Part shown: positions 31,340 to 45,452 of the stretch, in pieces | How the letters are laid out: each line of letters opens with the position of its first letter | How positions within the stretch are numbered: position 1 is the first letter of the stretch | Source: a virus | IMG/VR virus record: IMGVR_UViG_3300032245_001466 | Location: 1-64,000 of that record | Strand: one strand, 5' to 3' | DNA length: 64,000 bases | Position numbers and translations under genes: made by a program | The notes under the pieces: model-generated | Databases searched by the model: none | What the model was told of the DNA's origin: nothing | Seen by the model: the letters and a program-made list of their open reading frames with translations, nothing else

Positions 31340-31582
31340 ATGTCTAAGAATGACAATCTTGCCGTCGCGATCAAGCGCCGAGACAATGCTCTCGCGTTGC
31401 TTGTAAGCGCGAAGGCGGATGTTGTTGCTGCGACGCGTCGTATCGCCGAGAGCGGTGGTTCCTATTTGGGGAATCGCCCTTCGTCGCATCCGAGCGTTCA
31501 GACAGCACAACGCGTCCTCTGGAACGTTGAAGAGCAGTACGCCAAAGCGGCGGCTGATCTGGCAACGATCCAGAAGGCGTAG
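31340..31582 (+). CDS. Coiled-coil-like small protein (plus-array unit 5)
   Basis: 80 aa, mostly helical with heptad-like spacing (LAVAIKRRDNALALLVSAKA and VLWNVEEQYAKAAADLATIQ). ATG 31340 follows AGGTAGG; a GTG nine bases upstream is possible. Function unknown. Confidence 0.6.
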   Translation: MSKNDNLAVAIKRRDNALALLVSAKADVVAATRRIAESGGSYLGNRPSSHPSVQTAQRVLWNVEEQYAKAAADLATIQKA

Positions 31583-31745
31583 CGTCCGTCTGGATTCTCC
31601 GAACCGCTCGTCGCTGCTAGGCGAGCGGTTCCCCTTCTCCCCTCACCGAGCAAGCGCGGTGGGGGGAGAGGTCTATCGGGCCTCTCTCACTACGTTCGAT
31701 CCCGACAGTCCATAATATAACTAACTAAGTAACTAAGTTCGAGTC

Positions 31746-31853
31746 AGCGCTCCGCGCTTAACGAGCCAACCTAAATGAATCTGCCGTCCGTGGGAATATT
31801 CATTTGCGACGGGAGAGACGTCGCCCATGTGGTTAAAGCAAATAGGAGGCTCT
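31746..31853 (+). promoter_or_regulatory. Plus-array unit 6 promoter module
   Basis: AGCGC-TCC-GCGCT palindrome (31746-31758), ACCTAAATGAATC, GGGAATATT at 31792 in the place of GGCATT, leader hairpin GCGACG/CGTCGC and AGGAGG. Confidence 0.65.
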
Positions 31854-32126
31854 ATGACGGATACCGAAAAGAAGGCAGCTCCGGTCACGTTGCTGCCATT
31901 TGTTGTCGTGGTCGCACGACTCGTTGAATTCTACATCCCTGTAGCAGCGGCTACAGCGGCTGATGCGAGTGATATCGCTCAGCAGATGGTCATGGATGGC
32001 CATGCTGATGATTTCTCCAACGAATGCGACATCCAGGAGGATGACGTTGACGTTCGGGGGGCGACGTTTGACGATCGCAACCTGTACAAATTCTTTGACG
32101 CGGACGGCGAAGAGCACCGCTTCTAG
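31854..32126 (+). CDS. Hypothetical acidic protein (plus-array unit 6)
   Basis: 90 aa. Starts MTDTEKKAAPVTLLPFVVVV, then a helix and a strongly acidic C-terminus (DDVDVRGATFDDRNLYKFFD). The hydrophobic strand is probably buried rather than membrane-spanning. AGGAGG before ATG 31854. An acidic DNA-mimic role is conceivable but not shown. Confidence 0.6.
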   Translation: MTDTEKKAAPVTLLPFVVVVARLVEFYIPVAAATAADASDIAQQMVMDGHADDFSNECDIQEDDVDVRGATFDDRNLYKFFDADGEEHRF

Positions 32127-32273
32127 ATCCTGACCGCCATCTCTCGGCGGTCAACATCCCCCTCACCGCAGCGATGCGGTGAGGGGGATGGTAGATCCCT
32201 AGTCTCTCTCACTACGTTCGAGCTCGAGAATCCGCAATATAACTAACTAACTAACTAACCCAGAGTTCGACTC

Positions 32274-32392
32274 GCCGCTCCGCGGCTAACATGCGTACCT
32301 AAATGAATCGGGCGGTCGGGGCATTATGTCGGCACGGGGACGCCCGACGCGTTGTGAATCGCAACGCGAAACAGAATCAAATAGGAGGCAGT
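32274..32392 (+). promoter_or_regulatory. Plus-array unit 7 promoter module
   Basis: GCCGC-TCC-GCGGC palindrome (32274-32286; arms differ from other units yet pair), ACCTAAATGAATC, GGCATTAT at 32320, leader hairpin GCGTTG/CAACGC and AGGAGG. Confidence 0.7.
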
Positions 32393-32653
32393 ATGGACGC
32401 ACTGGAAATCTTGTACAAGGTATTCGCACTATCGTATGTTGCCGAGCGCGAGGCGTATCGCAATGTTCAGCGTTGGGAGACGCTCGCAGCGGCGCAGGGG
32501 AAACCCGAACCGCAGTACGCAACCGATAGCGTGTACGCTTCGCTCATTGATGAGTGGGACGAAGCGCACAAGGAACTGAAGAAGTTTGAGCGCGAACTTC
32601 TCAAGGAGTACCGCAAGCAGCGAGCAGCGGGCACCTTCACAGTGATGGCGTAG
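32393..32653 (+). CDS. Helical coiled-coil protein (plus-array unit 7)
   Basis: 86 aa, almost all helix (EILYKVFALSYVAEREAYRN, EAHKELKKFERELLKEYRKQ), probably a coiled-coil dimer. The start at ATG 32393 is set by AGGAGG; longer upstream frames have none. Function unknown. Confidence 0.65.
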   Translation: MDALEILYKVFALSYVAEREAYRNVQRWETLAAAQGKPEPQYATDSVYASLIDEWDEAHKELKKFERELLKEYRKQRAAGTFTVMA

Positions 32654-32793
32654 ACACCGCCACGACACCACACCCCATCAACCGCGGACGCGCGGTTGGT
32701 GGGGTGGTCGGTCGGTACTCTCTCTCACGTTGTTCGAGCTCGGCAGCCCATAAGATAACTAACTAACTAACTAACCAATAACTGGTTCGAATC

Positions 32794-32888
32794 GGCGCTC
32801 CGCGCCTAACGAGCCCACATAAACGAATCCGTCGCCTATGACATTATTCAGGTGCGGCAGTTGCCGTGTAGTATGAAAGGGGAAAGAA
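32794..32888 (+). promoter_or_regulatory. Plus-array unit 8 promoter module
   Basis: GGCGC-TCC-GCGCC palindrome (32794-32806), ACATAAACGAATC, GACATTAT at 32840, leader GCGGCAGTTGCCGTGTAG and AAAGGGG. The leader segment GGCAGTTGCCGTGTAG is identical to one in minus-array unit 11. Confidence 0.7.
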
Positions 32889-33215
32889 ATGTCACACGAG
32901 TTAGAGTTCAGTCACGATCCAAAGAGCGTCGCAGATCCCTGCTCTCTGGATAGTATCGTTGAGGCGTACATTGAATTCCGCAACGCACCTGTGCGTGGCA
33001 CGAATCTCGTTTATCGGCAAATGCCCGTAGACGAGATGCTCGCGATGACGCGCCGACCAGAGGATTTCATTGAGAGGCTAGGATCGTGGGCTGCGATCTG
33101 GGGTTCAGATTCTCAGCGATACGACATCGGCAAGTTCGGGTGGTGGTCCTGCTCCGAGTGCGGCGCCGATGACATTGAGTTAGGTTCATACGACGACGAG
33201 TGCGACGAAGAGTAG
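32889..33215 (+). CDS. Hypothetical protein with single CxxC (plus-array unit 8)
   Basis: 108 aa. YIEFRNAPVRGTNLVYRQMP in the middle and a C-terminal GWWSCSECGADDIELGSYDD. The last motif resembles GYWECEECGEESKRIS at the end of unit 11, so the two proteins may be distant relatives. Function unknown. Confidence 0.65.
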   Translation: MSHELEFSHDPKSVADPCSLDSIVEAYIEFRNAPVRGTNLVYRQMPVDEMLAMTRRPEDFIERLGSWAAIWGSDSQRYDIGKFGWWSCSECGADDIELGSYDDECDEE

Positions 33216-33223
33216 TCGCCAAT

Positions 33224-33264
33224 CGCTCCACTCTCCCACCGCTCACCGCTTCGGCGGTGGGCGG
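33224..33264 (+). terminator. Terminator of plus-array unit 8
   Basis: CCCACCGC/GCGGTGGG-type stem closed by a UUCG-like loop region (CTCACCGCTTCGGCGGTG). Equivalent UUCG or near-UUCG hairpins follow the stops of units 7, 9, 10 and 11 (about 32160, 33770, 34300 and 34865); units 2 to 6 have related GC-rich hairpins there. Confidence 0.6.
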
Positions 33265-33343
33265 TGGTAGTTCCATCCCGAGTCTCTCACTTCGTTCGAT
33301 CTCGAAACTCCATAAGATAACTAACTAACTGGGCGTTCGATCC

Positions 33344-33436
33344 GACGCTCCGCGTCTATCAGGAGAACCTAAACAATAATGGCGTCTATGTCATTGTCTC
33401 TCTGCGGCACCTGCCGTATAGTTTGTAGGAGGTAGT
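33344..33436 (+). promoter_or_regulatory. Plus-array unit 9 promoter module
   Basis: GACGC-TCC-GCGTC palindrome (33344-33356), ACCTAAACAATAA, GTCATTGT at 33390, leader GCGGCACCTGCCG and AGGAGG. Confidence 0.7.
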
Positions 33437-33760
33437 ATGTCGGACACAGAAACGATGAGCCTTCAGGAGATGGCTCGCGAACTGACGGTAATGCGCATTG
33501 AGCGTTCCCGCTGCTGCGATCCATACGATTGTATGCATCACGAGATGTGCGGCGAAGAGTGGTACGGGAAATGCAGCGGCTGCGAGCGTCGTGCGTACCT
33601 TTCCAATGAATTCTACGCTGCGTGCGAAGCAGAGAATGCAGATCCTGCCGCGCTGCTCAATGCAGAAGAGCGCGCTATTGAGGATGAGCGCTTTGACTTC
33701 TACTCGCGAATGAACGAGTGGGGCAATGACGACGCTGCCTTCTGGACCGATCAAGAGTAG
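33437..33760 (+). CDS. Cysteine-rich acidic protein (plus-array unit 9)
   Basis: 107 aa. Six cysteines in CCDPYDCMHHEMCGEEW and CSGCERRAYL make a zinc site; helical and acidic afterwards (AEERAIEDERFDFYSRMNEW). AGGAGG precedes ATG. Function unknown. Confidence 0.65.
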   Translation: MSDTETMSLQEMARELTVMRIERSRCCDPYDCMHHEMCGEEWYGKCSGCERRAYLSNEFYAACEAENADPAALLNAEERAIEDERFDFYSRMNEWGNDDAAFWTDQE

Positions 33761-33873
33761 TCGCATCACCCCGTTCACCGCTTTGGCGGTGGGCGGGGTG
33801 GTCTACCGAGGCTCTCTCACTACGTTCGATACCGAACCCCCGTAAGATAACTAACTAACCCTGAGTTCGACTC

Positions 33874-33969
33874 GGCGCTCCGCGCCTAACGAGAGCACCT
33901 AAATGAATCACCCCCTCGTGGCATTCTCTTGGTGCGGCACTTGCCGCGTAGTATGAAAGGGGAGCGCAA
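33874..33969 (+). promoter_or_regulatory. Plus-array unit 10 promoter module
   Basis: GGCGC-TCC-GCGCC palindrome (33874-33886), ACCTAAATGAATC, GGCATTCT at 33920, leader GCGGCACTTGCCGC and AAAGGGGAG. This unit is closest to the array consensus. Confidence 0.75.
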
Positions 33970-34275
33970 ATGTTTGATTGCGTAAAGCACGGCGAGGTAG
34001 CGAAGAGTCTCAGTGGCTATTGCGTTGCTTGCTGCTCAGAGGATCATATCTGCGAAACCTGCGGATTGCGCAGCGGCAGTGATGATGGCTTCACTCTCGT
34101 TGAGTGGCGCAGCACGCAAATTTGGAAGGGTCAGATGCTTTGCGATGATTGCGTTGCGTGCGCAGATTGCGAAGTTTCTGGTGACGGTACCGTGAACACC
34201 CACAACGATTACAGCGAACTGCTTTGCGATGCTTGCGTTGAGGATCGCGACGCAGAGTGGGAGAGCGAAGAGTAG
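33970..34275 (+). CDS. Multi-zinc-ribbon protein (plus-array unit 10)
   Basis: 101 aa with at least six Cys pairs: CVACCSEDHICETCG, CDDCVACADCEVSG and CDACVEDRD. Probably two zinc knuckles, LIM-like in spacing, and an acidic tail. It may be a protein- or nucleic-acid-binding adaptor; family unknown. Confidence 0.7.
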   Translation: MFDCVKHGEVAKSLSGYCVACCSEDHICETCGLRSGSDDGFTLVEWRSTQIWKGQMLCDDCVACADCEVSGDGTVNTHNDYSELLCDACVEDRDAEWESEE

Positions 34276-34413
34276 TCACAACCGATCCACTCCACCATCG
34301 TCAACCGCTCGGCGGTTGGCGGTGGTGGTTCAATCGGGAGTCTCTCACTTCGTTCGATCCCGACAGTCCGTAATATAACTAACTAATTAACTAACTAATA
34401 ACTGGTTCGACTC

Positions 34414-34508
34414 GGCCCTCCGGGCCTATCGGCCTAACATAAATGAATCAATCGTTTGCCGTACTCTCTGGGTGCGGCGGTTGCCGTGTAGTAATAAGGA
34501 GGCTAGTA
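34414..34508 (+). promoter_or_regulatory. Plus-array unit 11 promoter module
   Basis: GGCCC-TCC-GGGCC palindrome (34414-34426), ACATAAATGAATC, CGTACTCT at 34460, leader GCGGCGGTTGCCGTGTAG and AAGGAGG. Confidence 0.65.
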
Positions 34509-34853
34509 ATGGGAGCAATGAAGAATCAAGCAATAGAGGAGCGCAACGATAGCGTCGTTGATTATCACACATGGCGATTCGTAGAAGCCGATGGCGGTGC
34601 TGATCAGCACGCGCTAGAGTGGTGGGCGTCATCATACGCTCGCCGTGCCGATACCGCCGACGAAGCGGTAGACGTCATGGAGAAGCCGCATCACTACGCT
34701 GAGGAGATTGCAGAGTTCGCCAGCATTTATGCTGACGCGAGCGATGACGACCTCTCGCTATTCGGCTATTGGGAGTGTGAAGAGTGCGGCGAAGAGTCCA
34801 AGAGGATCTCGCACTCGATAGACATGGCGAAGACCTGCTACGGTCAGCAGTAG
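34509..34853 (+). CDS. Hypothetical protein with CxxC (plus-array unit 11)
   Basis: 114 aa, helical and acidic (QHALEWWASSYARRADTADE, ASIYADASDDDLSLFG), ending GYWECEECGEESKRIS. It shares the aromatic-x-C-x-E-C-G ending with unit 8. AAGGAGG selects ATG 34509 over upstream in-frame starts. Confidence 0.65.
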   Translation: MGAMKNQAIEERNDSVVDYHTWRFVEADGGADQHALEWWASSYARRADTADEAVDVMEKPHHYAEEIAEFASIYADASDDDLSLFGYWECEECGEESKRISHSIDMAKTCYGQQ

Positions 34854-34982
34854 CGCACCGCCCCACTCACCGCTTCGGCGGTGGGTGGGGCGGTCTATCG
34901 GGCCTCTCTCACTTCGTTCGAGCTCGCCAACCTGACTAATAACTAACTGCATAACTAACTAAGATAACTAACCTAACGTTCT

Positions 34983-35082
34983 GACGCTCGCTCCGCTCGC
35001 TTCGGCCGAACTATAATGAACCCAGCGATTCAGGCACTATGTCGGTGCGGGGCTTCCCGTGTTGCGATAAGGAGGCAATAAA
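34983..35082 (+). promoter_or_regulatory. Plus-array unit 12 promoter module (divergent)
   Basis: The palindrome is degenerate (GCTCGCTCCGCTCGC, then TTCGGCCGAA), but ACTATAATGAACC and GGCACTAT at 35033 keep the spacing. Leader CGGTGCGGGGCTTCCCG and AAGGAGG. CTATAATG contains a TATAAT that could serve as a second promoter. Confidence 0.5.
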
Positions 35083-35319: not shown

Positions 35320-35437
35320 AGCCCCTCGTTGCCACGCGGCAGCGGGGGGCTTTCTGTTTGACCCCTCCTCGCCGGGCGAGGAGGGCTTGCCCAAATAATA
35401 AGCCCCCCAAGAGCCTCGGCGGTTTCTTGGGGGGCTT
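35320..35437. terminator. Bidirectional terminator cluster at the array junction
   Basis: Three strong stems: AGCCCCTCGTTGC/GCAGCGGGGGGCT with TTTCTGTTT (35320-35356, plus direction), CCCTCCTCGC/GCGAGGAGGG (35363-35385), and AAGCCCCCCAAGA/TCTTGGGGGGCTT with ATTATT on the minus strand (35400-35437). They separate the facing arrays. Confidence 0.85.
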
Positions 35438-35773: not shown

Positions 35774-35878
35774 TGTCTAGCCTCCTTCTATGCCTTGCCC
35801 AAGTGGGCTAGTCGCATTATAGAGTGAGATTCTGCGCCCTGTCAAGCGTTCTATCTCAGGTAGCCGGGGCTACCTGAG
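35774..35878 (-). promoter_or_regulatory. Minus-array promoter 1 with upstream palindrome
   Basis: TTGACA (35840-35845), 18 nt, TATAAT (35816-35821). Upstream a perfect 10-bp palindrome CTCAGGTAGC with its complement and a 4-nt loop (35855-35878). Leader hairpin GCCCACTTGGGC and GGAGG follow. A UUCG-capped terminator of the preceding unit lies at about 35892-35912. Confidence 0.85.
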
Positions 35879-35954
35879 CCATAACAATAAACCCCGCCGA
35901 AGCGGGGCTTATCGTTTCACGACGGGGGGCTAGTTCCCCGTAGCGAGCATCTAG

Positions 35955-36176
35955 TTATCGCGCAAGCGCGACGGCCTCTTGTACGCGGCTTGCCGCGCCC
36001 TCGGCGCTACCGAACTCCTCAATGCCGAACACCTCAACGAGATTGTTTACAAAGTCGGTCGCCATCTTCTCAAAGTAGAAGGTCGTATCGCCCTCCGCGT
36101 CCTGCCCCTCATACCAACGGGCAAAGGTTGTGCTTGCTCCGTTTGTGTGAATCTGATACCAAGTGTTTGCGTTCAT
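35955..36176 (-). CDS. Hypothetical protein (minus-array unit 2, second gene)
   Basis: 73 aa, begins MNANTWYQIHTNGASTTFAR; aromatic beta N-terminus then a helix (SAEGAASRVQEAVALAR). It starts 5 nt after the preceding stop, so it is cotranscribed with the zinc protein at 36182. Function unknown. Confidence 0.6.
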   Translation of the reverse strand: MNANTWYQIHTNGASTTFARWYEGQDAEGDTTFYFEKMATDFVNNLVEVFGIEEFGSAEGAASRVQEAVALAR

Positions 36177-36181
36177 TAGTC

Positions 36182-36331
36182 CTACTCCTCACATACGCAG
36201 GTTTCGCACCCGCAGTTGATTTTGTTGTGGCACTTCTCGCAAAGCACCTTGCCGCTCTGGTTGAGTGTTTCGCTCATACCATCGCCGCAGTTCTCGCAGG
36301 GCGAGTAGTCCAAGTCCTCAAAGGTCGCCAT
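36182..36331 (-). CDS. Small zinc-binding protein (minus-array unit 2, first gene)
   Basis: 49 aa with eight cysteines: CENCGDGMS, CEKCHNKINCGCETCVC. Two zinc sites are likely. GGAGGCTAGAA before ATG, the same ribosome-site sequence used by its neighbours. Function unknown. Confidence 0.65.
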   Translation of the reverse strand: MATFEDLDYSPCENCGDGMSETLNQSGKVLCEKCHNKINCGCETCVCEE

Positions 36332-36436
36332 TTCTAGCCTCCTATTCCTAGCCAGCCCAAGTGGGCTACGGGCATTATAGAGTCATCTTCTGCCTGCCGT
36401 CAAGTGGTTCTAGTCCAATCTGCCGAGGCAGATTGG
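36332..36436 (-). promoter_or_regulatory. Minus-array promoter 2 with upstream palindrome
   Basis: TTGACG (36398-36403), 18 nt, TATAAT (36374-36379). Palindrome CCAATCTGC with its complement (36415-36436, loop CTCG on the minus strand). Leader hairpin GCCCACTTGGGC. Just upstream, AACGAGGGG/CCCCTCGTT with TTTTTG terminates the previous unit. Confidence 0.85.
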
Positions 36437-36492
36437 AGGCAAACAAAAACGAGGGGCGCACCCCTCGTTTCTGTTTTCTGAGCTGCGAAACC

Positions 36493-36900
36493 TTACGCGA
36501 TAGGGTAGCCGCCCAGTTCTAGCAGCGTGCGGATTTCTTCCACCTGCTCATCATTGAGGGCGAGCGTCTGCCCGTCCTTATCCTCTGCGGTGAGTACGCA
36601 GTTGCCATAGATGCCGTCAAAGTTTCCGCCGAGGATTTCATTTCGCAGCGAAGTTGCCGCCTGATTGCGGACGACTGGCTCATTGAAAAGCCCTTCCTCA
36701 TCGCACCAGAGCACCACACTCGTTGCGCCGTACTTGCCAGAAACCGCAACCTCGGTAATGTCAAACTCGCCCACGCGGTAAATCTCTTTGAGCGTGCTGC
36801 CGTCATCGTTGAAGTCCACCACCTCAACCCAGTTGAAGAGTGCGCCGTTTGGCGTTGCGTCCTCAAACTTGCCGACTCCGAACTTGAACGCCTTACCCAT
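36493..36900 (-). CDS. Hypothetical protein (minus-array unit 3)
   Basis: 135 aa, beta-rich (FNWVEVVDFNDDGSTLKEIY, YGATSVVLWCDEEGLFNEP) with a C-terminal IYGNCVLTAEDKDGQTLALN and helix. The last part resembles small phage DUF3846-type proteins, but I cannot assign it firmly. GGAGGCTAG before ATG. Confidence 0.6.
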   Translation of the reverse strand: MGKAFKFGVGKFEDATPNGALFNWVEVVDFNDDGSTLKEIYRVGEFDITEVAVSGKYGATSVVLWCDEEGLFNEPVVRNQAATSLRNEILGGNFDGIYGNCVLTAEDKDGQTLALNDEQVEEIRTLLELGGYPIA

Positions 36901-37010
36901 TTTCTAGCCTCCTACTTTTTCCATCGGGAAGCCCCGACCTCTGAATCTTACGCGATAAATCCGCAGCCTGTCAAGCGGGTTCTACCCCTAATGGCCGGAG
37001 CCATTAGGGG
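36901..37010 (-). promoter_or_regulatory. Minus-array promoter 3 with upstream palindrome
   Basis: TTGACA (36969-36974), 18 nt, TAAGAT (36945-36950). An 11-bp palindrome CCCCTAATGGC with its complement and UCCG loop (36985-37010). Leader hairpin TCGGGGCTTCCCGA. No separate terminator lies between it and the preceding gene, so the palindrome itself may end transcription. Confidence 0.85.
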
Positions 37011-37030
37011 CTGAACTATTATCTGGCGAT

Positions 37031-37372
37031 TTAGGCGAAGACGCTTGTGATGTCCTGCATTTCGCGCTCAGCGGCTTCGGCGGAATCAAAGACAACGAAG
37101 TCAATGAATCCATCGTTGCGCCAGTGAACGATTGCATACTGGAACCTATCGTAAGTCCCATCAAGTTCGGTTTCATACGATTCATCTGGGATAGCAACGC
37201 CATCCATCGTATCTCCATAGATGAGTTCAATCTTGATAGCGTGCGGCTCAACGCGGCTCCGAACTTCTGGTCGGAGATACCAAACTGGGCACTTGCTGCA
37301 CACTTCGCCCTGTGAGCAGTGGAACTGGTAGAAGTCGCTCTTCGTGAGTGAGATTGCAAACGCCTTGAACAT
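37031..37372 (-). CDS. Hypothetical protein (minus-array unit 4)
   Basis: 113 aa. MFKAFAISLTKSDFYQFHC and CSKCPVWYLRPEVRSRVEPH, then alternating strands and helix (YAIVHWRNDGFIDFVVFDS, AEAAEREMQDITSVFA). Possibly one zinc pair. GGAGGCTAGG before ATG. Confidence 0.6.
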   Translation of the reverse strand: MFKAFAISLTKSDFYQFHCSQGEVCSKCPVWYLRPEVRSRVEPHAIKIELIYGDTMDGVAIPDESYETELDGTYDRFQYAIVHWRNDGFIDFVVFDSAEAAEREMQDITSVFA

Positions 37373-37476
37373 CCTAGCCTCCTGTTCTCAATCAGCCCAA
37401 GTGGGCTACGCCCATTGTAATGTGAACTTTCCCAGCCTGTCAAGCGTTCTATCCCAAGTGGCCTCGGCCACTTGGG
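37373..37476 (-). promoter_or_regulatory. Minus-array promoter 4 with upstream palindrome
   Basis: TTGACA (37438-37443), 18 nt, TACAAT (37414-37419). Palindrome CCCAAGTGGC with its complement, loop CGAG (37453-37476). Leader hairpin GCCCACTTGGGC. Upstream terminator AAGCGGGCTAGTTG with its complement at about 37492-37527. Confidence 0.85.
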
Positions 37477-37573
37477 GCATAACAATAATAAAGCGGGCTA
37501 GTTGGCTGCGATCAACTAGCCCGCTTGGGGAAGAGGTGGTGGAGGCTGCCGCCACCTCGTAGACATTAGTCCG

Positions 37574-37837
37574 CTATGCGAACTCAAACTGGCGACAATC
37601 TGCGCCGAACAAACAACTGGCTGGCTCGTGTGGTTGTGGCTCTATTGCCCAGTTTAGGCAAGTGCCGCAAGAATCGCCACAAAGGTTGATGTCATCCCAG
37701 TCAAAGACAGGTCCGAGGGTGTTGCCCTCGCGGTCAGTTGTCTGTGGGTCGTCAAGCGCGTCGCCGAAGCGAACCTCAGCGCACGCCACGCAATGGAATG
37801 AACCCTCGTAAGTCCAAGCCAAGATTCTGCTATCCAT
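37574..37837 (-). CDS. Cysteine-containing protein (minus-array unit 5)
   Basis: 87 aa. Cysteines in CVACAEVRFGD, LCGDSCGTCLNW and CLFGADCRQF suggest two metal sites. AGGAGG before ATG 37837; an upstream in-frame start lacks a ribosome site. Function unknown. Confidence 0.6.
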   Translation of the reverse strand: MDSRILAWTYEGSFHCVACAEVRFGDALDDPQTTDREGNTLGPVFDWDDINLCGDSCGTCLNWAIEPQPHEPASCLFGADCRQFEFA

Positions 37838-37940
37838 AAGTCCTCCTACTCGCAACTATCGGTAGTTCCCGACCACACGATTATACGCGATAAGTTCTGA
37901 GCCTGTCAAGTTCCACCGCAAGGAGCCGAGGCTCCTTGCG
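37838..37940 (-). promoter_or_regulatory. Minus-array promoter 5 with upstream palindrome
   Basis: TTGACA (37904-37909), 18 nt, TATAAT (37880-37885). Palindrome CGCAAGGAGC with its complement, loop CTCG (37917-37940). Leader hairpin TCGGGAACTACCGA. Confidence 0.85.
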
Positions 37941-37954
37941 CCTACCCAATAATG

Positions 37955-38035
37955 CTATCTACTGCTGATGAGGGCGAGTGTGTACAGCATTAGGAGCAGG
38001 AGCAGCCCGTAGAAGATGGCGTACTCCACAATCAT
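37955..38035 (-). CDS. 26-residue membrane peptide (minus-array unit 6, second gene)
   Basis: MIVEYAIFYGLLLLLMLYTL plus six residues: one transmembrane helix. The ATG overlaps the upstream stop (ATGA), so translation is coupled. A 26-codon membrane ORF with the same coupling is found at 47137. Confidence 0.5.
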   Translation of the reverse strand: MIVEYAIFYGLLLLLMLYTLALISSR

Positions 38036-38289
38036 ACAACCACGCTTTGGAGCGCGTCGTAGCAGTCATCGCATAGCGACTGCTTATGCTCGTAGGCGTT
38101 CTCGTAGCCGTTCCAGCCGTAGGCAAACGAACGCGTCTTGCCCTCAAACGGGCAACGCTTGTCCAGACCAAGAGCCTCCTCGCCCTCGCACTCCTGAACC
38201 ATTGGGTGATCGTGCGTTTCGCACTCGCATTGGTCGTAGTAGCAATCGCCGTTGCCACACATCGTCATTGACGCTTGTAGGTATGCCAT
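38032..38289 (-). CDS. Cysteine-rich protein (minus-array unit 6, first gene)
   Basis: 85 aa. MCGNGDCYYDQCECETHDH at the N-terminus and SLCDDCYDALQSV at the C-terminus form probable zinc sites. AAGGAGGCAACA before ATG 38289. Function unknown. Confidence 0.65.
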   Translation of the reverse strand: MAYLQASMTMCGNGDCYYDQCECETHDHPMVQECEGEEALGLDKRCPFEGKTRSFAYGWNGYENAYEHKQSLCDDCYDALQSVVV

Positions 38290-38395
38290 TGTTGCCTCCT
38301 TCACTAGCCTCCCCAAGTGGGGTACTCGTATTCTATACACACTCCTAGCCAGCCGTCAAGCGGGGTTCTAGTCATCTTTGCCGGAGCAAAGATGA
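38290..38395 (-). promoter_or_regulatory. Minus-array promoter 6 with upstream palindrome
   Basis: TTGACG (38354-38359), 18 nt, TAGAAT (38330-38335). Palindrome TCATCTTTGC with its complement, UCCG loop (38372-38395). Confidence 0.8.
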
Positions 38396-38408
38396 GCAGA
38401 ACAAATAG

Positions 38409-38628
38409 AAAGACCCCCCAGAGCCGTCGCCCTGAGAGGTCTTTCCTCGGATTCGTTGTCTGGGGCTAATCACTTCCCCAGACTCCTTTTCCTTCCGCTC
38501 CGCCGATACATTGGCTCCTAGCGGTCATCGTCCTTTGCGTCTCTATCCCCGCATTTCTTGGCTGCGGCATCTGCTCGCTCGTCCAGAGTCTCACCCAGTC
38601 GGTTGCTATTCCTAGGATCGCTTCCGAC
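38409..38628 (-). ncRNA. Candidate structured non-coding RNA 1
   Basis: A canonical array promoter reads into about 220 nt with no ribosome site and no convincing ORF, ending in an intrinsic terminator (AAAGACC/GGTCTTT stem, 38409-38444, then TCTATTTGTT). Within it lie GTCGG/CCGAC at the 5' end (38598-38628), CCGCA/TGCGG (38549-38567), CCGCT/AGCGG with inner GCC/GGC (38495-38524), and an 8-bp GTCTGGGG/CCCCAGAC hairpin (38458-38483). The last can be replaced by AGACTC/GAGTCT (38480-38485 with 38586-38591), a possible switch. A 54-codon ORF starting 4 nt after the -10 is possible but improbable. Confidence 0.55.
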
Positions 38629-38749
38629 ATAGGGAGTATCTCACCTCGTCTGGGGTCTTGTCAAGCACTTTCCCAAAGATTCTTTATGAATCTTTTTTAT
38701 CCACCAGCCGCCCCCTTGACAGTTCTATCCCGAAGTGCAGCTGCACTTC
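38629..38749 (-). promoter_or_regulatory. Minus-array promoter 7 (drives ncRNA 1) with distant palindrome
   Basis: TTGACA (38659-38664), 18 nt, GATACT (38635-38640). The palindrome CCCGAAGTGC with its complement (38726-38749) sits about 60 nt further upstream than in other units. Between them lies a plus-oriented terminator-like hairpin (AAGATTC/GAATCTT then TTTTT, about 38673-38700). Confidence 0.7.
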
Positions 38750-38792
38750 GGGCTGCCACAATAATAAACTCAAAGAACAAGGAGCCAAATAA

Positions 38793-38927
38793 CTAACTCT
38801 CTTGCGGGTGCTCGCAGTTTTCTGACTGCTCCAACTCGTAGCACGCGTTATCCCGAACGGGATTGTCTACACACTCGCAGACAATCTCATTGCGTTCGCA
38901 GTCATCGCACCAAACCATCGTACTCAT
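38793..38927 (-). CDS. Small Cys-rich acidic protein (minus-array unit 8, third gene)
   Basis: 44 aa. CDDCERNEIVCECVDN, then CYELEQSENCEH: seven cysteines in total, probably a zinc site. TAATG overlap with the preceding gene. Function unknown. Confidence 0.55.
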   Translation of the reverse strand: MSTMVWCDDCERNEIVCECVDNPVRDNACYELEQSENCEHPQES

Positions 38928-39145
38928 TAGAGCCTCCCAGTTCCGCCGCAGCCGCAGATGCCGCCCTCGCAGGTTGCGCCTTCCTCAACGAGCAGCGCGC
39001 AGCCGTACTTCTCGGCTCGGTGTTCCTCGCACGATTCGCAGTAAAGAGCAGATTTGCCAGACTCATTGTTGTCGGAGATGTACGCTGCCTGACCGTCGCA
39101 GAAGTCGCAGAAGCGCGACTCCAAGATGAACTCGCCCTCGCTCAT
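38927..39145 (-). CDS. Zinc-ribbon protein (minus-array unit 8, second gene)
   Basis: 72 aa. CDFCDGQAAYISDN and CESCEEHRAEKYG form one ribbon; the end CEGGICGCGGTG is a second cysteine cluster. The start overlaps the upstream stop (ATGA). Function unknown. Confidence 0.65.
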   Translation of the reverse strand: MSEGEFILESRFCDFCDGQAAYISDNNESGKSALYCESCEEHRAEKYGCALLVEEGATCEGGICGCGGTGRL

Positions 39146-39351
39146 AGTGCCACCTCAAATCCGTCAGCCTGAATACCATCTAGAATCTGCTGAACATAGC
39201 GGCGCTCAATCGCAAGACCGCGACCAAGATACATCGCGTCCTCGCCGATGTTCTCGTCCAGCCAGCGGCGAGCATCGCTCGTCGTCGGAGTGAGTAGGCA
39301 GACGGAGCCGCCGTCCGTGAGCGTGAAGTCCGCGCTGTGCTTCTTTGCCAT
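39142..39351 (-). CDS. Hypothetical protein (minus-array unit 8, first gene)
   Basis: 69 aa: DFTLTDGGSVCLLTPTTSDA then ARRWLDENIGEDAMYLGRGL and YVQQILDGIQADGFEV. A small alpha/beta fold; many phage proteins of this size and pattern are known without function. AGGAGG precedes ATG. Confidence 0.65.
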   Translation of the reverse strand: MAKKHSADFTLTDGGSVCLLTPTTSDARRWLDENIGEDAMYLGRGLAIERRYVQQILDGIQADGFEVAL

Positions 39352-39452
39352 TGTGTCCTCCTATCGCAACGCGCCCAAGTGAGCGTGAGGAAAGTGTAAA
39401 TGATCATTGACCAGCCGTCAAGTTCTAACTCAAACAGCCGCGGCTGTTTGAG
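39352..39452 (-). promoter_or_regulatory. Minus-array promoter 8 with upstream palindrome
   Basis: TTGACG (39416-39421), 17 nt, TACACT (39393-39398). Palindrome CTCAAACAGC with its complement, loop CGCG (39429-39452). Confidence 0.8.
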
Positions 39453-39465
39453 CCGAAACAATAAA

Positions 39466-39668
39466 GGGGAGCCGCGCCAGACACCACATCTGGCACGACT
39501 CCCCGCGTATCGCCGCTATGACGCTTATCCCCTTGCGGAGGCAACCTTCGGCTCTCGCCTAGTTGCTGCTGACTCTACCTTCTCTGGTTAGGAGCCCAAG
39601 AGCCAGACCTTATCGTCGCGGGCAGTTCGTCAATCTGCCAACTAGCCGTCCTCTACACGGCGCGGATT
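39466..39668 (-). ncRNA. Candidate structured RNA 2 (3' region of unit 9)
   Basis: After the stop of the unit-9 gene about 165 nt of non-coding sequence lead to a terminator (GGGGAG plus GCCAGA stems, 39466-39504, then TTTATTG). Paired segments include GCCGT/ACGGC (39645-39661), a closing stem CTAGTTG/CAACTAG (39559-39565 with 39639-39645) around TCTGG/CCAGA (39583-39607) and GGCAG/CTGCC (39621-39639), a GCAA-capped CUCC/GGGG hairpin and a GAGA-capped GGC/GCC. Two GNRA tetraloops and a multibranch closing stem suggest a folded RNA. No own promoter is visible. Confidence 0.5.
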
Positions 39669-39671
39669 TAT

Positions 39672-39956
39672 TTACGCTTTCACCTCGTACTGCTCGCCGC
39701 CGATTCGCAGCGCGGTGATTGCGTCAAGGGCGATTGAGCGATAGCCCTCTGCGGTAATGTCATAGACGAAGATGAGGTCTTTGGCAGCAGCGTCATACGC
39801 AGCCTCGCCGCCTTTGAGATGCTTCTTTACGCCAAGACGCGCCGTCATCTTGCGAAGTTCGCCCGTGGTTCGCTTGATGAAGTCCACGCCGAAGATTGCG
39901 CCATTGCTGTTGCGAATCATCTCTGCCGCTTCGCTTCGCTTGATTGCCTTTGCCAT
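39672..39956 (-). CDS. Conserved phage/plasmid small protein, SH3-like (minus-array unit 9)
   Basis: 94 aa. Pattern MIRNSNGAIFGVDFIKRTTG, RLGVKKHLKGGEAAYD, DLIFVYDITAEGYRSIALD and GGEQYEV. This small beta-rich family (KKHLKGG and GYRSI motifs) is widespread in phages and plasmids, without known function. GGAGGAAGAA selects ATG 39956. Confidence 0.7.
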   Translation of the reverse strand: MAKAIKRSEAAEMIRNSNGAIFGVDFIKRTTGELRKMTARLGVKKHLKGGEAAYDAAAKDLIFVYDITAEGYRSIALDAITALRIGGEQYEVKA

Positions 39957-40062
39957 TTCTTCCTCCTTGTTCACAGCACCCCAATCGGGGCAAGCCCATT
40001 ATAGGGTCATCTTTTGCCAGCCGTCAAGTGGGTTCTAGCCCAAGAGGCCGGAGCCTCTTGGG
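39957..40062 (-). promoter_or_regulatory. Minus-array promoter 9 with upstream palindrome
   Basis: TTGACG (40022-40027), 18 nt, TATAAT (39998-40003). Palindrome CCCAAGAGGC with its complement, UCCG loop (40039-40062). Confidence 0.85.
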
Positions 40063-40078
40063 GCTGAACTATAATCGC

Positions 40079-40255
40079 CTACTTCCAGTCTTCTGGAACT
40101 AACTGCCAATCCTTTTCGCAATCACTAGAATAAAGGTCGCAATGCCGACACCAGACGACAAAGCAGCCCTCCTCGTGTCCGTCTTTCTCGCAATCAGACC
40201 AGAGCCAATGCGCCTCGCGAAGATTGTCTGGGCAGTCGCAGCGAAGAACGCTCAT
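40079..40255 (-). CDS. Small Cys/His-rich protein (minus-array unit 10, second gene)
   Basis: 58 aa. CDCPDN, CEKDGHEEGC and WCRHCDLYSSDCEKDW give two possible zinc sites. ATGA overlap with the upstream gene. Function unknown. Confidence 0.6.
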   Translation of the reverse strand: MSVLRCDCPDNLREAHWLWSDCEKDGHEEGCFVVWCRHCDLYSSDCEKDWQLVPEDWK

Positions 40256-40701
40256 AGGACTTCGCAACCTTTCAGGGTGCGGCAAAGACCCAGAAACTCT
40301 CGCCACTCCTCAATAATCGCAACCCAAGCCGTAGCCTCTTCATCTGGGTCAGCCTTCGTCTTATCGTCCGTGTACGGGCTGGCAAGAAGAATACCAGTAA
40401 TAATCTTCTTGATTTCTTCTTCGCTCAACTTGGAGATGGCATTGTGTAGTTCTTCGCACTCATAGTCCTTGATGATGTTGCCGCTGTTATCGTACAGATT
40501 CTCATTGACCTCGGTGAATCCAATCTCATCGTGGAAAGCGCGCAGGTAGCCCATACCCCAAATGTTCAGTCGGAAATAGACCGCGCTTGGAGCCTTCTCA
40601 GCGTAAGAGCCGTCTGGCTCAATCCACATTGAGCGGAACTTCTTGGCGTGCGCCGCAGCCAGTTCACGATTCTCTCGCAATGAGTAGATGTCGTATCCCA
40701 T
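40252..40701 (-). CDS. Hypothetical protein (minus-array unit 10, first gene)
   Basis: 149 aa. MGYDIYSLRENRELAAAHAK, YFRLNIWGMGYLRAFHDEIG and SKLSEEEIKKIITGILLASP. The start MGYDIY... and an aromatic N-terminal half recur in small phage proteins, but the family is not certain. GGAGGACAAA precedes ATG 40701; an upstream in-frame extension lies in the promoter region. Confidence 0.65.
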   Translation of the reverse strand: MGYDIYSLRENRELAAAHAKKFRSMWIEPDGSYAEKAPSAVYFRLNIWGMGYLRAFHDEIGFTEVNENLYDNSGNIIKDYECEELHNAISKLSEEEIKKIITGILLASPYTDDKTKADPDEEATAWVAIIEEWREFLGLCRTLKGCEVL

Positions 40702-40803
40702 TTTGTCCTCCTTATTCCACACCCCAATCAGGGCAAGGTCATTGTAAGGTACCGCTCTCCGCTCGTCAATAGGTTCTAGCCAAGATGGCCGGAGCCATCT
40801 TGG
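40702..40803 (-). promoter_or_regulatory. Minus-array promoter 10 with upstream palindrome
   Basis: TTGACG (40764-40769), 17 nt, TACAAT (40741-40746). Palindrome CCAAGATGGC with its complement, UCCG loop (40780-40803). Upstream terminator AACCGCC-TTCG-GGCGGTT with TTTTTTG at about 40812-40830. Confidence 0.85.
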
Positions 40804-40854
40804 GTACAACAAAAAACCGCCCGAAGGCGGTTAGTTGTTTGGAAATAATCCTGA

Positions 40855-41331
40855 CTAAACGATAACTTCCTGCGGCTCCATAAGCCCAGCCCAGATGTTT
40901 GGCACATTAGAGCGGATGCTCGTGTATCCGTCAGAGGAAATAACGAGATGGTCAAGAAACTCAATGTCCAACAGGCGCGCCCCTGCCACCAAGTCCTCAG
41001 TTAGTTTCTTGTCCTCGTCGGACGGAGTGTGGTCGCCGCTTGGGTGATTGTGAACAACCACAATGCCCTGACCGCCAGTCAGGATACAAGAGCGAAACAC
41101 TTCGTTGATGCGAACGCTTGTGCCTGTTGCCGTGCCAAGATAGACCTGCTCAATCCCGATGAGATTATTCCTTGCCCCAAGCACCATCACAAACAGCGAC
41201 TCCTGATTAGAGTCCTTTGCGAAATCGCGGAACATCTTTACTGCCTCGGCTGGCTGCTCAACCCTCTCATCGGACTGATCAGCAACCTTCTTTCTCTTTA
41301 CCACCATTTCGTATGCTTTCCAGTTCTTCAC
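40855..41331 (-). CDS. RadC-like JAB-domain protein (minus-array unit 11, second gene)
   Basis: 158 aa. VVVHNHPSGDHTPSDED is the JAB/JAMM metal motif (HxH...D) of RadC-like proteins, followed by LLDIEFLDHLVISSDGYTSI. Residues 1-35 are a basic extension. RadC-like genes are common in mobile elements and defence islands; their biochemical role is unsettled. The start overlaps the upstream stop by ATGA. Confidence 0.85.
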   Translation of the reverse strand: MKNWKAYEMVVKRKKVADQSDERVEQPAEAVKMFRDFAKDSNQESLFVMVLGARNNLIGIEQVYLGTATGTSVRINEVFRSCILTGGQGIVVVHNHPSGDHTPSDEDKKLTEDLVAGARLLDIEFLDHLVISSDGYTSIRSNVPNIWAGLMEPQEVIV

Positions 41332-41876
41332 GCTACCACCACCTTTGCTGCTTCCTCTTTGGTTGTCTTGCCGCTGCGAATCTCATCTCGCAACTCAATC
41401 CCTTCCTTCATCCAGATTGCGTCAAGTTCGGCGTTGCGCTTCTCAGCGTGCTTTGCCTCGCGCAAACCTTCCTCAGTCATACGCTCAACAACGCGCTTGC
41501 GCCAAGCCGTCGGCGACTCATAAGAGGCGTTTGTTGAGAGTCCGATGTGCCGAACGATGTCGGCACGCGTCAGAGGGCGAGCCTCAAAGCAATCTGCGTT
41601 CTTATCGCCGTCTGGCTCGTTTCCGTTCCATACGGTCATCTTTGAGAGCCAACCGATTTCGTATGCGAGCGCGAGTCGCTGCTCCCACTCATCCACATTG
41701 GCTTCGGTGATTTCGTTTAGTCCAATCGTCATCGTCGCCCAGATGAAGGAGTTCGTGATTGGGCTGAGGTACTCCTCGCCGCGCACGCGTCCATCCATCA
41801 CGCTGCTCTTTGTTGCGGTGAGCCAACAGACATCATCCGCGTCCTTGATGTTTCCCACGAACCAACTTAGTGGCAT
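41328..41876 (-). CDS. Hypothetical protein (minus-array unit 11, first gene)
   Basis: 182 aa. MPLSWFVGNIKDADDVCWLT, then FIWATMTIGLNEITEANVDE and a highly charged helical end (MTEEGLREAKHAEKRNAELD). Not recognised. It is encoded with the RadC-like gene. Confidence 0.6.
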   Translation of the reverse strand: MPLSWFVGNIKDADDVCWLTATKSSVMDGRVRGEEYLSPITNSFIWATMTIGLNEITEANVDEWEQRLALAYEIGWLSKMTVWNGNEPDGDKNADCFEARPLTRADIVRHIGLSTNASYESPTAWRKRVVERMTEEGLREAKHAEKRNAELDAIWMKEGIELRDEIRSGKTTKEEAAKVVVA

Positions 41877-41984
41877 ACTGCCTCCTTATGTCCTCTTATC
41901 GGGAAGCCCCGACCTGCTTATTCTAAGACCACGCTTGACCCGCTGTCAAATGGGTTCTAGTCCAATGAGCCGGAGCTCATTGGA
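41877..41984 (-). promoter_or_regulatory. Minus-array promoter 11 with upstream palindrome
   Basis: TTGACA (41944-41949), 18 nt, TAGAAT (41920-41925). Palindrome TCCAATGAGC with its complement, UCCG loop (41961-41984). Leader hairpin TCGGGGCTTCCCGA. No other terminator precedes it. Confidence 0.85.
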
Positions 41985-42004
41985 GGCGAACTATTATCTG
42001 CTTA

Positions 42005-42475
42005 TTACTTGATTTGGTTTGTCGTATAACCGCACGCCATACAAACTGGGACGGAGCAGCCTTCGGGATTGTCGCCCGTATCTACGCCCTCATCTGGGTC
42101 GCACAATCCACACGGCGCATAATCGACATCACGGCAGAGGCACTCGCTTTTCGCATCTCGCGGCAAGTCGTTGTAGTGCCTGTGCCAGTTTGCGTCGCCG
42201 TCGCGATTCAGCGCAAACTCGCAATCAGGGCGGAAGCACCAACCATCAGCAACGGCTTCCTTGTCCGACATAAATGGCGGGTGAAACTCACACTCGCACG
42301 GAGCGCAGTCCAAGCAGTAGACGAGATAGCCATCTGGCACGCTTCCATCATACTGATCAAAGTCAAGCGTATCGAATCGCGTGTACGGCATACCATTCCA
42401 AGTGCCGATGACCTTCTCGTCGGCGTAGAAGACCATCGTGGAGCAGCGAACGCATTTGTCCATCTGCCCACTCAT
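42005..42475 (-). CDS. Cysteine-rich protein (minus-array unit 12, second gene)
   Basis: 156 aa with about 14 cysteines in pairs (CVRCSTMVFY, CLDCAPCECEFH, CRDVDYAPCGLCD, VCMACGYTT). Probably several zinc ribbons. ATGA overlap with the upstream gene. Function unknown. Confidence 0.65.
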   Translation of the reverse strand: MSGQMDKCVRCSTMVFYADEKVIGTWNGMPYTRFDTLDFDQYDGSVPDGYLVYCLDCAPCECEFHPPFMSDKEAVADGWCFRPDCEFALNRDGDANWHRHYNDLPRDAKSECLCRDVDYAPCGLCDPDEGVDTGDNPEGCSVPVCMACGYTTNQIK

Positions 42476-42780
42476 TCTGCTTCCTCCCACTCCGCGCCCT
42501 GCTCAATCAGGGAAACGAATCCTTCATTTGGATCATCGTGGTTGGTGTGAACTGCCTGTACGAATCGCAACGAACAAGAGTTCTCGTACCACTCCATCAC
42601 CGCGCTCAGCATCTCATCTGGCGTGGTGTCTTCCGCGGAGATCAGCGGATCATAGCCGTACCCGCGCATCTCCGACATCTGCTCATCGTCCATCAAGACA
42701 TAGATCTTGTGGCAGGTATCAAACGCGATGCCCTTCGCATTTTCTAGATACTCCTCAACCTTGTCGAAACTCGCTGCCAT
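42472..42780 (-). CDS. Hypothetical protein (minus-array unit 12, first gene)
   Basis: 102 aa: MAASFDKVEEYLENAKGIAF, KIYVLMDDEQMSEMRGYGYD, and an acidic tail. The pattern YLENAKGIAFDTCHKIYVLMD followed by G-Y-D-P resembles small phage proteins of unknown function. Confidence 0.65.
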   Translation of the reverse strand: MAASFDKVEEYLENAKGIAFDTCHKIYVLMDDEQMSEMRGYGYDPLISAEDTTPDEMLSAVMEWYENSCSLRFVQAVHTNHDDPNEGFVSLIEQGAEWEEAE

Positions 42781-42885
42781 TTCGTCCTCCTAGTTTCTAC
42801 ACGGCAACTGCCGTAGGTGGATTGTAAGGCACAACCTAGCGGCTCGTCAAATGTTCTACTCCAAGTGGCCGGAGCCACTTGGAGT
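42781..42885 (-). promoter_or_regulatory. Minus-array promoter 12 with upstream palindrome
   Basis: TTGACG (42845-42850), 18 nt, TACAAT (42821-42826). A 12-bp palindrome ACTCCAAGTGGC with its complement, UCCG loop (42858-42885). The leader GGCAGTTGCCGTGTAG equals that of plus-array unit 8. Upstream terminator AAATCCCGCCC with its complement and TTTTTG. Confidence 0.85.
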
Positions 42886-42940
42886 AAAACAAAAATCCCG
42901 CCCCGAAGGGCGGGATTTCTGGTTGATCTTCTGGTGAAGA

Positions 42941-43903
42941 TTACGCGAGGGCGAGAATCGCCTCGCGCTTTGTCTTCGCTGCGAAGCCCGTATCCAACAT
43001 CACGCTTGACGCTCGCGCATCAAGAGCCGTTGAGCGAACGCCGCCACGATACGAAACGCCGTGATCGAGGTACTCCGCGATGGCGTTGTACACGCCCCAC
43101 TTCGTATCGCGAAGCCCGTCAAGATTCTCCGCGTTATTGAGAATCGCGAAAGTTGCCTTAGCGCGCTCCGACATTACTTCCTTATCGCGCTTCTCCGATT
43201 CAGAGAGCGGGAAGATCTTTGAGATGATGCGGAACGCCTCAGATCGCTCAATCTTCTGGGCAACCATCTGCGAGCCGATGCGCGAGAACTCATCAACAGC
43301 GGCAGAGGCAAGCCCAAGAGCGCGCTTCGCCTCCGCGACTTTCTCCTCAATCTTCGCCGTGTGGCGAAGTGTGAACGACATCTTCGCGCTTCCAAGAGCC
43401 GCGTTGAGCGTATTCTGGCATACCACGCGCACAGGAGTGATCATCGCTTTGAGCGGGAACAGCCCGTTGTGCCCATTGGCGATGACGAGGTAAGTCGTCG
43501 TGCCGCCGTTGTCGCCCTTGATCTCGATCTTCTCAGGAATCTCCAACGCCGCGAAGATCACCTGACCGCCTTTGAGTGAACCAGCCGTTTCGTAGCGCGC
43601 ACCCTCATCAAGCAGCGCGTCCGCGAACGACAGCATCTCATCGTTCTGGATTGGCGTGTAGCGGTCGCCGACAACGCCAAGAACCGCGCCGTCAGTTGAT
43701 CGAACATTTGCGCGCTTGCCCTCGATGGCGAGCGTCTTGTTGTCGAGCGTTGTGAAGATCGGCTGCTGCTTGACCTGCCAATCAAGACCCGCGGCAACGA
43801 TCATTTCCGCGCTCGTAGTAAGACCTGCGTTTGCTACGCCAAGTCCGTGCCACGGCATACCGCGCTCCGCGTTGTATGCCATCGTTTCTACCTCGTGTGC
43901 CAT
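42941..43903 (-). CDS. DUF932 / TIGR03299-type phage/plasmid protein (minus-array unit 13)
   Basis: 320 aa. MAYNAERGMPWHGLGVANAG, VGDRYTPIQNDEMLSFADAL, TYLVIANGHNGLFPLKAM and PVRVVCQNTLNAALG are characteristic of the DUF932 family (TIGR03299), frequent in phages and on conjugative plasmids near the leading region, where it is expressed early. Biochemical function unknown. GGAGGACACA before ATG 43903. Confidence 0.85.
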   Translation of the reverse strand: MAHEVETMAYNAERGMPWHGLGVANAGLTTSAEMIVAAGLDWQVKQQPIFTTLDNKTLAIEGKRANVRSTDGAVLGVVGDRYTPIQNDEMLSFADALLDEGARYETAGSLKGGQVIFAALEIPEKIEIKGDNGGTTTYLVIANGHNGLFPLKAMITPVRVVCQNTLNAALGSAKMSFTLRHTAKIEEKVAEAKRALGLASAAVDEFSRIGSQMVAQKIERSEAFRIISKIFPLSESEKRDKEVMSERAKATFAILNNAENLDGLRDTKWGVYNAIAEYLDHGVSYRGGVRSTALDARASSVMLDTGFAAKTKREAILALA

Positions 43904-44003
43904 TGTGTCCTCCTTCTTTACATACGGCAACTGCCGTAAGAAGATTCTCCCACAAGCACAAGATCGCGTCAAGTTCTAGCCCAAAGGGCCGGAGCCCTTT
44001 GGG
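43904..44003 (-). promoter_or_regulatory. Minus-array promoter 13 with upstream palindrome
   Basis: TTGACG (43967-43972), 17 nt, GAGAAT (43944-43949). Palindrome CCCAAAGGGC with its complement, UCCG loop (43980-44003). Leader GGCAGTTGCCGTATG. Upstream terminator at about 44014-44042 with TTATTATTAT. Confidence 0.8.
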
Positions 44004-44088
44004 TGGAACATAATAATAAGCCCCCCGAATAATCGAGGGGCTTATTACTTTGTGGGGCGCAGGGAGGACGCCTTGCGCCCCGAAGTCA

Positions 44089-44901
44089 TCAGCCTCCGAC
44101 GATGCCGCCGAAATGCTCCTCGCAGAACGACTCAAACTCCGTCTGCGGAACGGCATCATAATCTCGCTCGCCGTATTGCGGCTTGCCATCTTCGCCCTTG
44201 TACCACGCCTCATCTGGCAGCGAGTCGCCATCGCCAAACTCACGCCGCGAGATTTCGTTTCCCGCGTGATAGACAACTTCGCCAGCGTAGCCCATACCGC
44301 CTTCGCAATAACGATGAGTAATGGTCAGCGTTGGGAATAACCCAGAGAGCGCGTGAATCACAGGCTCGGCAGGGCTCCACGCGGTATCAAAGTTGTATGA
44401 AGTTATACCCGCGACAAATGAGTCGTCGCGGTCGTGCCAAGCCTCGGAGCAGTTCCACTTTGTTCCCCAATGCTCAACATTCCAGTTGTACCACCAGTCT
44501 GGGTGTGAGGAAATCTTTGGGGTGTTGTGCTTTGGGCAGACCTCTGAGCCGCCGAACATCTGAGCAACAGAGTCAGTAATCGTGCCGTTATCAAGGTTCG
44601 TCTTCTTTACCTCAACGCCGTCCACAGCCCAATAGCCTTCTTGAGGCTCAAAGCCGTAGTCCTTCTCGTACTCGTGTCCTTCGGCTCCCTTGACCACCGC
44701 CTTGGTGATAACGAACTCTGGGTGGCAGCCACAAAGGAAATCGTTCTGATTCTCGTTGGCTGAATAGTACGGAACATCAGGAGTCGGAACAATCTTCGCG
44801 AAATCGAAGCCGTCCTCTTCGCCCTTGACCAACTCAATGAGTCGGACAATCTCCTGCTCGTTTCCGCTGATGTCTACTTGGTTTACGCACCAGTTTGGCA
44901 T
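44089..44901 (-). CDS. Api92-like DUF1281 protein, ferredoxin-like fold (minus-array unit 14)
   Basis: 270 aa. MPNWCVNQVDISGNEQEIVR at the start and WYNWNVEHWGTKWN in the middle are the signature of Api92/YubB-like DUF1281 proteins found in phages and on plasmids next to anti-restriction and DUF932 genes. The C-terminal half has AWSPAEPVIHALSGLFPTLT. Function unknown; plasmid co-occurrence suggests an early host-interaction role. Confidence 0.85.
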   Translation of the reverse strand: MPNWCVNQVDISGNEQEIVRLIELVKGEEDGFDFAKIVPTPDVPYYSANENQNDFLCGCHPEFVITKAVVKGAEGHEYEKDYGFEPQEGYWAVDGVEVKKTNLDNGTITDSVAQMFGGSEVCPKHNTPKISSHPDWWYNWNVEHWGTKWNCSEAWHDRDDSFVAGITSYNFDTAWSPAEPVIHALSGLFPTLTITHRYCEGGMGYAGEVVYHAGNEISRREFGDGDSLPDEAWYKGEDGKPQYGERDYDAVPQTEFESFCEEHFGGIVGG

Positions 44902-45004
44902 TGTGTCCTCCTTGTGTCCTCGCGGGAAGCCCCGCACCATTGGATTGTAAGCCACCGCTTCCGCTGCTGTCAAGTTCTACCTCAACAAGCCGGAGCTTGT
45001 TGAG
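44902..45004 (-). promoter_or_regulatory. Minus-array promoter 14 with upstream palindrome
   Basis: TTGACA (44968-44973), 18 nt, TACAAT (44944-44949). Palindrome CTCAACAAGC with its complement, UCCG loop (44981-45004). The leader GGTGCGGGGCTTCCCG equals that of plus-array unit 12. Confidence 0.85.
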
Positions 45005-45022
45005 CGCGAACTAATTATTTTT

Positions 45023-45355: not shown

Positions 45356-45452
45356 AACTTCCTCCTTACACCTATAGGCTAACTGCCTAACCGCATTATA
45401 AGTCAGCCAATAACCGTCTGTCAAATAATAAGGTTCGGGCCTCGCTTGCGAG
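45356..45452 (-). promoter_or_regulatory. Minus-array promoter 15 with short upstream hairpin
   Basis: TTGACA (45419-45424), 18 nt, TATAAT (45395-45400): both boxes match the full sigma-70 consensus. Only a short CTCGC/GCGAG hairpin (45441-45452) replaces the long palindrome. Leader hairpin TAGGC/GCCTA. Confidence 0.8.

Follow-up and report, generated by a model that had tools for sequence, protein, structure and literature searches.

Cluster K mycobacteriophages carry many copies of a 17-bp inverted repeat, the extended start-associated sequence (ESAS), in regions of non-structural genes. These copies lie just upstream of translation starts, and according to the authors who described them, departures from the repeat did not support base pairing (PMC3203893). 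Dyads of 17-18 bp in Cluster O mycobacteriophages and Cluster EG Microbacterium phages are also repeated and intergenic, with one fixed arm sequence (PMC4351075, PMC7302621). In integrons, one attC site stands at the 3' end of each cassette; its sequence is poorly conserved but its fold is conserved, with conserved boundary boxes, an unpaired spacer and a variable stem (PMC2727003). REP elements are extragenic palindromes of 20-40 bp with a short conserved tag and a stem sequence shared within the family; GTAG REPs accompany RAYT (Y1) transposases, and the frequent G-T pairs were read by the authors as a sign of RNA function (PMC3733652). Intrinsic terminators place a GC-rich hairpin, followed directly by a U-tract, at the 3' end of a transcription unit. 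Template switching homogenises the arms of inverted repeats and inverts their spacers, though inversion was observed only when the arms exceeded 9 bp (PMC8604942), and hairpins can be maintained by this process (PMC8794818).

In this study, we analysed bases 1-64000 (the window) of an 82,937-bp virus record, in which a 38-bp palindromic element recurs through a minus-strand gene array. As in the ESAS, the half-site is 17 bp, with a 4-bp gap, but the pairing is perfect and the element is located at the 3' boundary of a unit; it lies upstream of a -35 box or has no promoter behind it, and it does not stand beside a start-associated sequence at a start codon. Its arms vary by unit, unlike those of the Cluster O and EG dyads. 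The element shares with attC a conserved structure without a conserved sequence and a 3' position. However, its outer boxes are GTTC (5') and TAGAAC (3') and not the R boxes RYYYAAC / GTTRRRY, single extrahelical bases are lacking, and the units own their promoters. There is no shared REP-like stem with a GTAG/CGTC tag, as 99 distinct elements hold 63 arms and the base before TAGAAC varies. Neither a tyrosine integrase (PF00589) nor a serine resolvase nor a Y1 transposase (PF01797) was found in the nine records with the array, which may be incomplete. Like an intrinsic terminator, the element is a GC-rich hairpin located 3' in its transcription unit, but it has no U-tract, and most units already have a canonical-looking terminator hairpin in front of it.

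Results

The array occupies 35.4-45.4 kb of the minus strand. A sigma-70-like promoter, a short hairpin at the 5' end and a ribosome-binding site are found in every one of its small units. The array is common to nine records of one uncultured phage group, the window record and eight relatives, all of which carry the same element design. Comparison of these records showed that unit order differs between phages and that some gene gains fall within units. No cultured relative was found of the array at the DNA level or of the c1 protein; a Brevundimonas phage has a distant homologue of another array protein, and the genes annotated at that place are closely packed. The element is absent from the DUF932 relatives L056 and L057 (64-65% identity).

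Each transcript in the window (35790-44940, minus strand) seems to start with a separate hairpin of 4-6 bp that is not part of the element, for example at 44922..44935 (-) with the loop GCTT. The loop of these hairpins is RNTT (GCTT, ACTT, GATT, AGTT), the stem is variable and some pairs are G.U. The plus array (29600-35050, plus strand) has its own repeated short hairpin, read by eye as approximately GTTCGANNC-5 bp-TCC-5 bp-TAAC/TATC with varying stems. Elsewhere in the window there are two ParB-like genes, at 50314-50832 (-) and 56142-56822 (+). A 406-aa exonuclease (9630-10850) was considered as an SbcD-like hairpin nuclease and rejected; it had no Pfam or PDB match.

The element has the form GTTC-NNN-[10-bp arm / 4 nt / 10-bp arm]-N-TAGAAC. 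Fourteen minus-strand palindromes between 45004 and 35855 share this design, each with 10 perfect arm pairs around 4 central bases, and the GTTC and GAAC flanks are mutually complementary across a 3x3 unpaired stretch. GTTC is altered at one or more bases in some copies. Element 1 (44974..45011; palindrome 44981-45004) reads CTCAACAAGC TCCG GCTTGTTGAG. The same loop follows the first arm in element 2 (43973..44010; 43980-44003; CCCAAAGGGC TCCG), element 3 (42853..42890; 42860-42883; TCCAAGTGGC TCCG), element 4 (41954..41991; 41961-41984; TCCAATGAGC TCCG), element 5 (40773..40810; 40780-40803; CCAAGATGGC TCCG), element 6 (40032..40069; 40039-40062; CCCAAGAGGC TCCG), element 9 (38365..38402; 38372-38395; TCATCTTTGC TCCG) and element 12 (36979..37016; 36986-37009; CCCTAATGGC TCCG), eight in all. 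Pairing is longer in two palindromes, reaching 13 bp in element 3 (42857-42886) and 11 bp at 36985-37010. The loop CTCG occurs twice, in element 10 (37910..37947; 37917-37940; CGCAAGGAGC CTCG), for which L002 has the reverse complement CGAG, and in element 13 (36407..36444; 36414-36437; TCCAATCTGC CTCG), which has a canonical terminator hairpin (36447-36470) directly before it. The remaining loops occur once each, in element 7 (39422..39459; 39429-39452; CTCAAACAGC CGCG), element 8 (38722..38759; 38729-38752; CCCGAAGTGC AGCT), element 11 (37446..37483; 37453-37476; CCCAAGTGGC CGAG) and element 14 (35848..35885; 35855-35878; CTCAGGTAGC CCCG). Element 14 looks like a hybrid of two L002 elements, at 18331 and 18735, its outer arm bases resembling one and its inner bases the next, as if one extra L002 unit between them had been lost or gained. 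A probable degenerate terminal element on the same strand (35356..35392; 10-bp arms and a 3-nt loop at 35363-35385) follows the last unit, with no promoter behind it.

The unit downstream of element 8, whose promoter lies tens of bases beyond the element, has no clear gene (38400-38700, minus strand). It begins GTCGGAAGCGAT, is conserved in L003 (11028-11350) and L004 (13624-13941), and is probably a non-coding RNA, for which Rfam gave no match that passed the threshold. A second unit that lacks a gene, with GAGCCGCTCTGGTGCCGCTGTGAA, is present in L003 (13377), L005 (14844), L037 (9439) and L039 (5902), and L004 has a different unit there. The 3' region of one window unit (39456-39670, minus strand) possibly holds a structured RNA; Rfam ctRNA_pGA1 matched weakly at 39456-39524 (E 0.013, below gathering score). 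In the Rfam 15 search of the window, only two tRNAs matched and the element had no match above gathering score.

In the nine records, 119 elements were detected at a threshold of at least 9/10 arm pairs, by which imperfect copies could be hidden; these represent 99 distinct 38-mers and the 63 arms mentioned above. Two checks limit that effect: among the sites listed in a search of the flanks alone, none that adjoined an array promoter was poorly paired, and in the arrays only the first unit's promoter has a ribosome-binding site but no element. Watson-Crick pairs accounted for 988/990 arm pairs in the 99 distinct elements, the exceptions being one G.T and one A.C. Shuffled partners gave a mean of 590 and a maximum of 624 of 990, which indicates that the element is not due to chance, and sliding the partner by one position gave 327-374. 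All ten pair columns vary, with 2-4 Watson-Crick types each, and arm positions 6-8 match in 297/297 cases. The stem ends at 10 bp, as the next position was paired in 8 cases against 18.3 expected. Both halves retain CCAA/TTGG, GC/GC and GTTC/GAAC, and the centre (positions 9-16) is GC-rich, with 96-99% GC at seven positions and 82% at the eighth. Kinship among the phages inflates these counts, and tests on close pairs and on one phage per group were used to lessen the effect. In other viral contigs, the same flanks (GTTC N28 TAGAAC N0-7 TTGAC) gave at least 74 matches, with pairing of 0-7/10 and mostly 1-3, as expected at random.

These results bear on several points of an earlier, sequence-only reading of this DNA. 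The perfect palindromes before promoters and the recurring GTT...TAGAAC flanks described there were confirmed, in a design more regular than first stated, and its suggestion that covariation reflects structural selection is strongly supported now that relatives are included. Its statement that the arms differ in every unit is correct in that no two of the 14 window arms are identical, but the arms are not free, since they follow the consensus YYCAANNNGC with a mean identity of 5.9/10. The conserved UNCG (UCCG) tetraloop that it proposed is not borne out as a motif by the relatives, whose loops are GGCG, CGCC, CGCG, TGCG and CGCA. The loop is in fact hypervariable: between L004 and L005, it changed at 7/44 sites compared with 18/660 in the surroundings (Fisher p = 0.0005). 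In orthologous elements the loop flips to its reverse complement, at c9 (GGCG/CGCC at 8326/8087), ncA and c4 between L004 and L005 and at c6 between the window and L002, although such flips could partly be two single substitutions because loops in those phages are mostly SGCS.

In thirteen of the 14 window elements, a TTGAC box follows 0-7 nt beyond GAAC. Overall, 0 to 57 nt separate the element from the -35 box, and the promoter geometry is therefore not fixed. The first unit's promoter (45390..45424, minus strand; at about 45424) is the sole array promoter with a ribosome-binding site that lacks an element. Conversely, the last element has no TTGAC promoter behind it and is undegraded in L003, L004, L005, L037, L038 and L039, which amount to about four independent cases because L004, L005 and L038 are close kin. 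The earlier claim that the element precedes each promoter is thus true as to position, but it does not cover either end of the array, and the element is more aptly described as coming after each unit.

The likeness of arms between phage groups pointed the same way. It tracked the upstream gene (6.92 versus 5.95; permutation, 0/1000) and, to a lesser degree, the downstream gene (6.49 versus 5.93; permutation, 0/1000); both neighbours thus count, the upstream one more, and the view that the arms travel with the downstream gene was dropped. Similarity from a shared upstream neighbour drops to background in the promoter spacer, where similarity from a shared downstream neighbour starts. Between L004 and L005 one whole unit has been replaced, the change beginning just past the -35 box and ending within the next element. 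The element is better read as a 3' fencepost of the preceding unit than as a part of the promoter.

Of 100 distinct 3' regions, 68 have a folded hairpin no more than 16 nt from GTTC, often with a U-rich tail, and about a third have no adjacent terminator hairpin. With one phage per group, the terminator cores had G.U in 27/360 pairs, 9 internal loops and defects in 27/45 stems, whereas the element cores had defects in 2/624 pairs and 2/78 stems. Between close phages, the element arms showed 8 two-sided and no one-sided changes and the terminator stems 5 two-sided and 14 one-sided changes (p = 0.0006), a comparison based on few changes and on terminators folded automatically. The element itself forms a stable hairpin. 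It is followed by TAGAAC in the sense direction and by GAAC and A-biased sequence on the other strand, so that neither strand has a U-tract directly after it.

Discussion

We tentatively propose that the element is a boundary made by folded-back DNA, which separates strong tandem units and closes one transcription unit of a modular array. Because neither strand uses wobble in its pairing, the selected form would be a hairpin of DNA, either single-stranded or as a cruciform. In addition, switching of the template from one arm to the other during replication probably makes the arms match again, which would explain both the perfect arms and the inverted loops. Since template switching should hit the terminators too, and these keep mismatches, selection on the pairing of the element is likely as well. 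With less confidence, the fold-back may insulate strong tandem promoters from one another, as a topological or physical boundary, and the differing arms may also spare adjacent units long shared homology, which is compatible with the suggestion in the sequence-only reading that unique arms would prevent recombination between repeats. Of the roles considered in the sequence-only reading, a cruciform agrees best in being a fold at the DNA level, but the GC-rich centre disfavours its spontaneous extrusion and counts against our own proposal.

A terminator or RNA-processing site, also suggested there, is less likely, given the terminator hairpin that usually stands just before the element, the missing U-tract and the near absence of G.U pairs and one-sided changes. 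The sequence comparisons favour selection on DNA self-pairing, probably helped by template switching, because the neighbouring terminators are rich in G.U and one-sided changes and the elements have almost none; by the reasoning applied to REPs, such scarcity points in the opposite direction from RNA function. G.U pairs could, however, also be kept out by strong selection on an RNA stem to be fully stable. The element might then be an RNA hairpin after each unit's main terminator, serving as a second, U-less terminator, a read-through barrier or a 3'-end stabiliser. We consider this rather unlikely. It would suit the presence of an element at the 3' end of every unit, the last one included, the 3' regions without an adjacent terminator, and the GC pairs beside the loop, which fit a single-strand hairpin. 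However, the loop is unconserved and sometimes flipped, and a backup would be expected under weaker constraint than the main terminator, not stronger.

Less probable still is a double-stranded operator, in which a dimeric protein would read the dyad GTTC..CCAA..GC / GC..TTGG..GAAC and template switching would match the unread positions. The bases kept in both halves agree with such a protein, and repeats with conserved dyads have been described in other phages (PMC4351075, PMC7302621). In this model, however, positions 6-8 are unread and yet always match, mismatches persist in the terminator stems of the same DNA, and the next three positions outward match no better than chance.

We regard as very doubtful an attC-like folded recombination site, whereby every unit would end, on its 3' side, in a fold-back site of its own at which units are exchanged: the reordering of units between phages, the whole-unit replacement between L004 and L005 and the link of the arms to the upstream gene would agree with it, but none of the recombinases sought was found in the nine, possibly incomplete, records, some gene gains lie inside units, and the same result would follow from homologous recombination within the TAGAAC..TTGAC stretch that the units share. 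A related and equally speculative possibility is that the elements are recognised by their shape as folded DNA and would mark, and possibly exchange, self-contained promoter-gene-terminator units via an unknown enzyme, as a phage counterpart of integron cassettes without the integron integrase. Hairpin promoters of the N4 type are unlikely, as the array has sigma-70-like boxes and the spacing is not fixed.

The phage intergenic repeats compared here keep their sequence, whereas in about 119 copies of this element it is mainly the fold that is preserved, and wobble pairs are almost absent. It therefore offers a clean natural case for asking whether hairpins of DNA, and not of RNA, are selected, and for studying how template switching maintains perfect inverted repeats. 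Should the element indeed act as a boundary, it would also help to define which gene units of phage arrays can be exchanged, and may be applied as a compact insulator.
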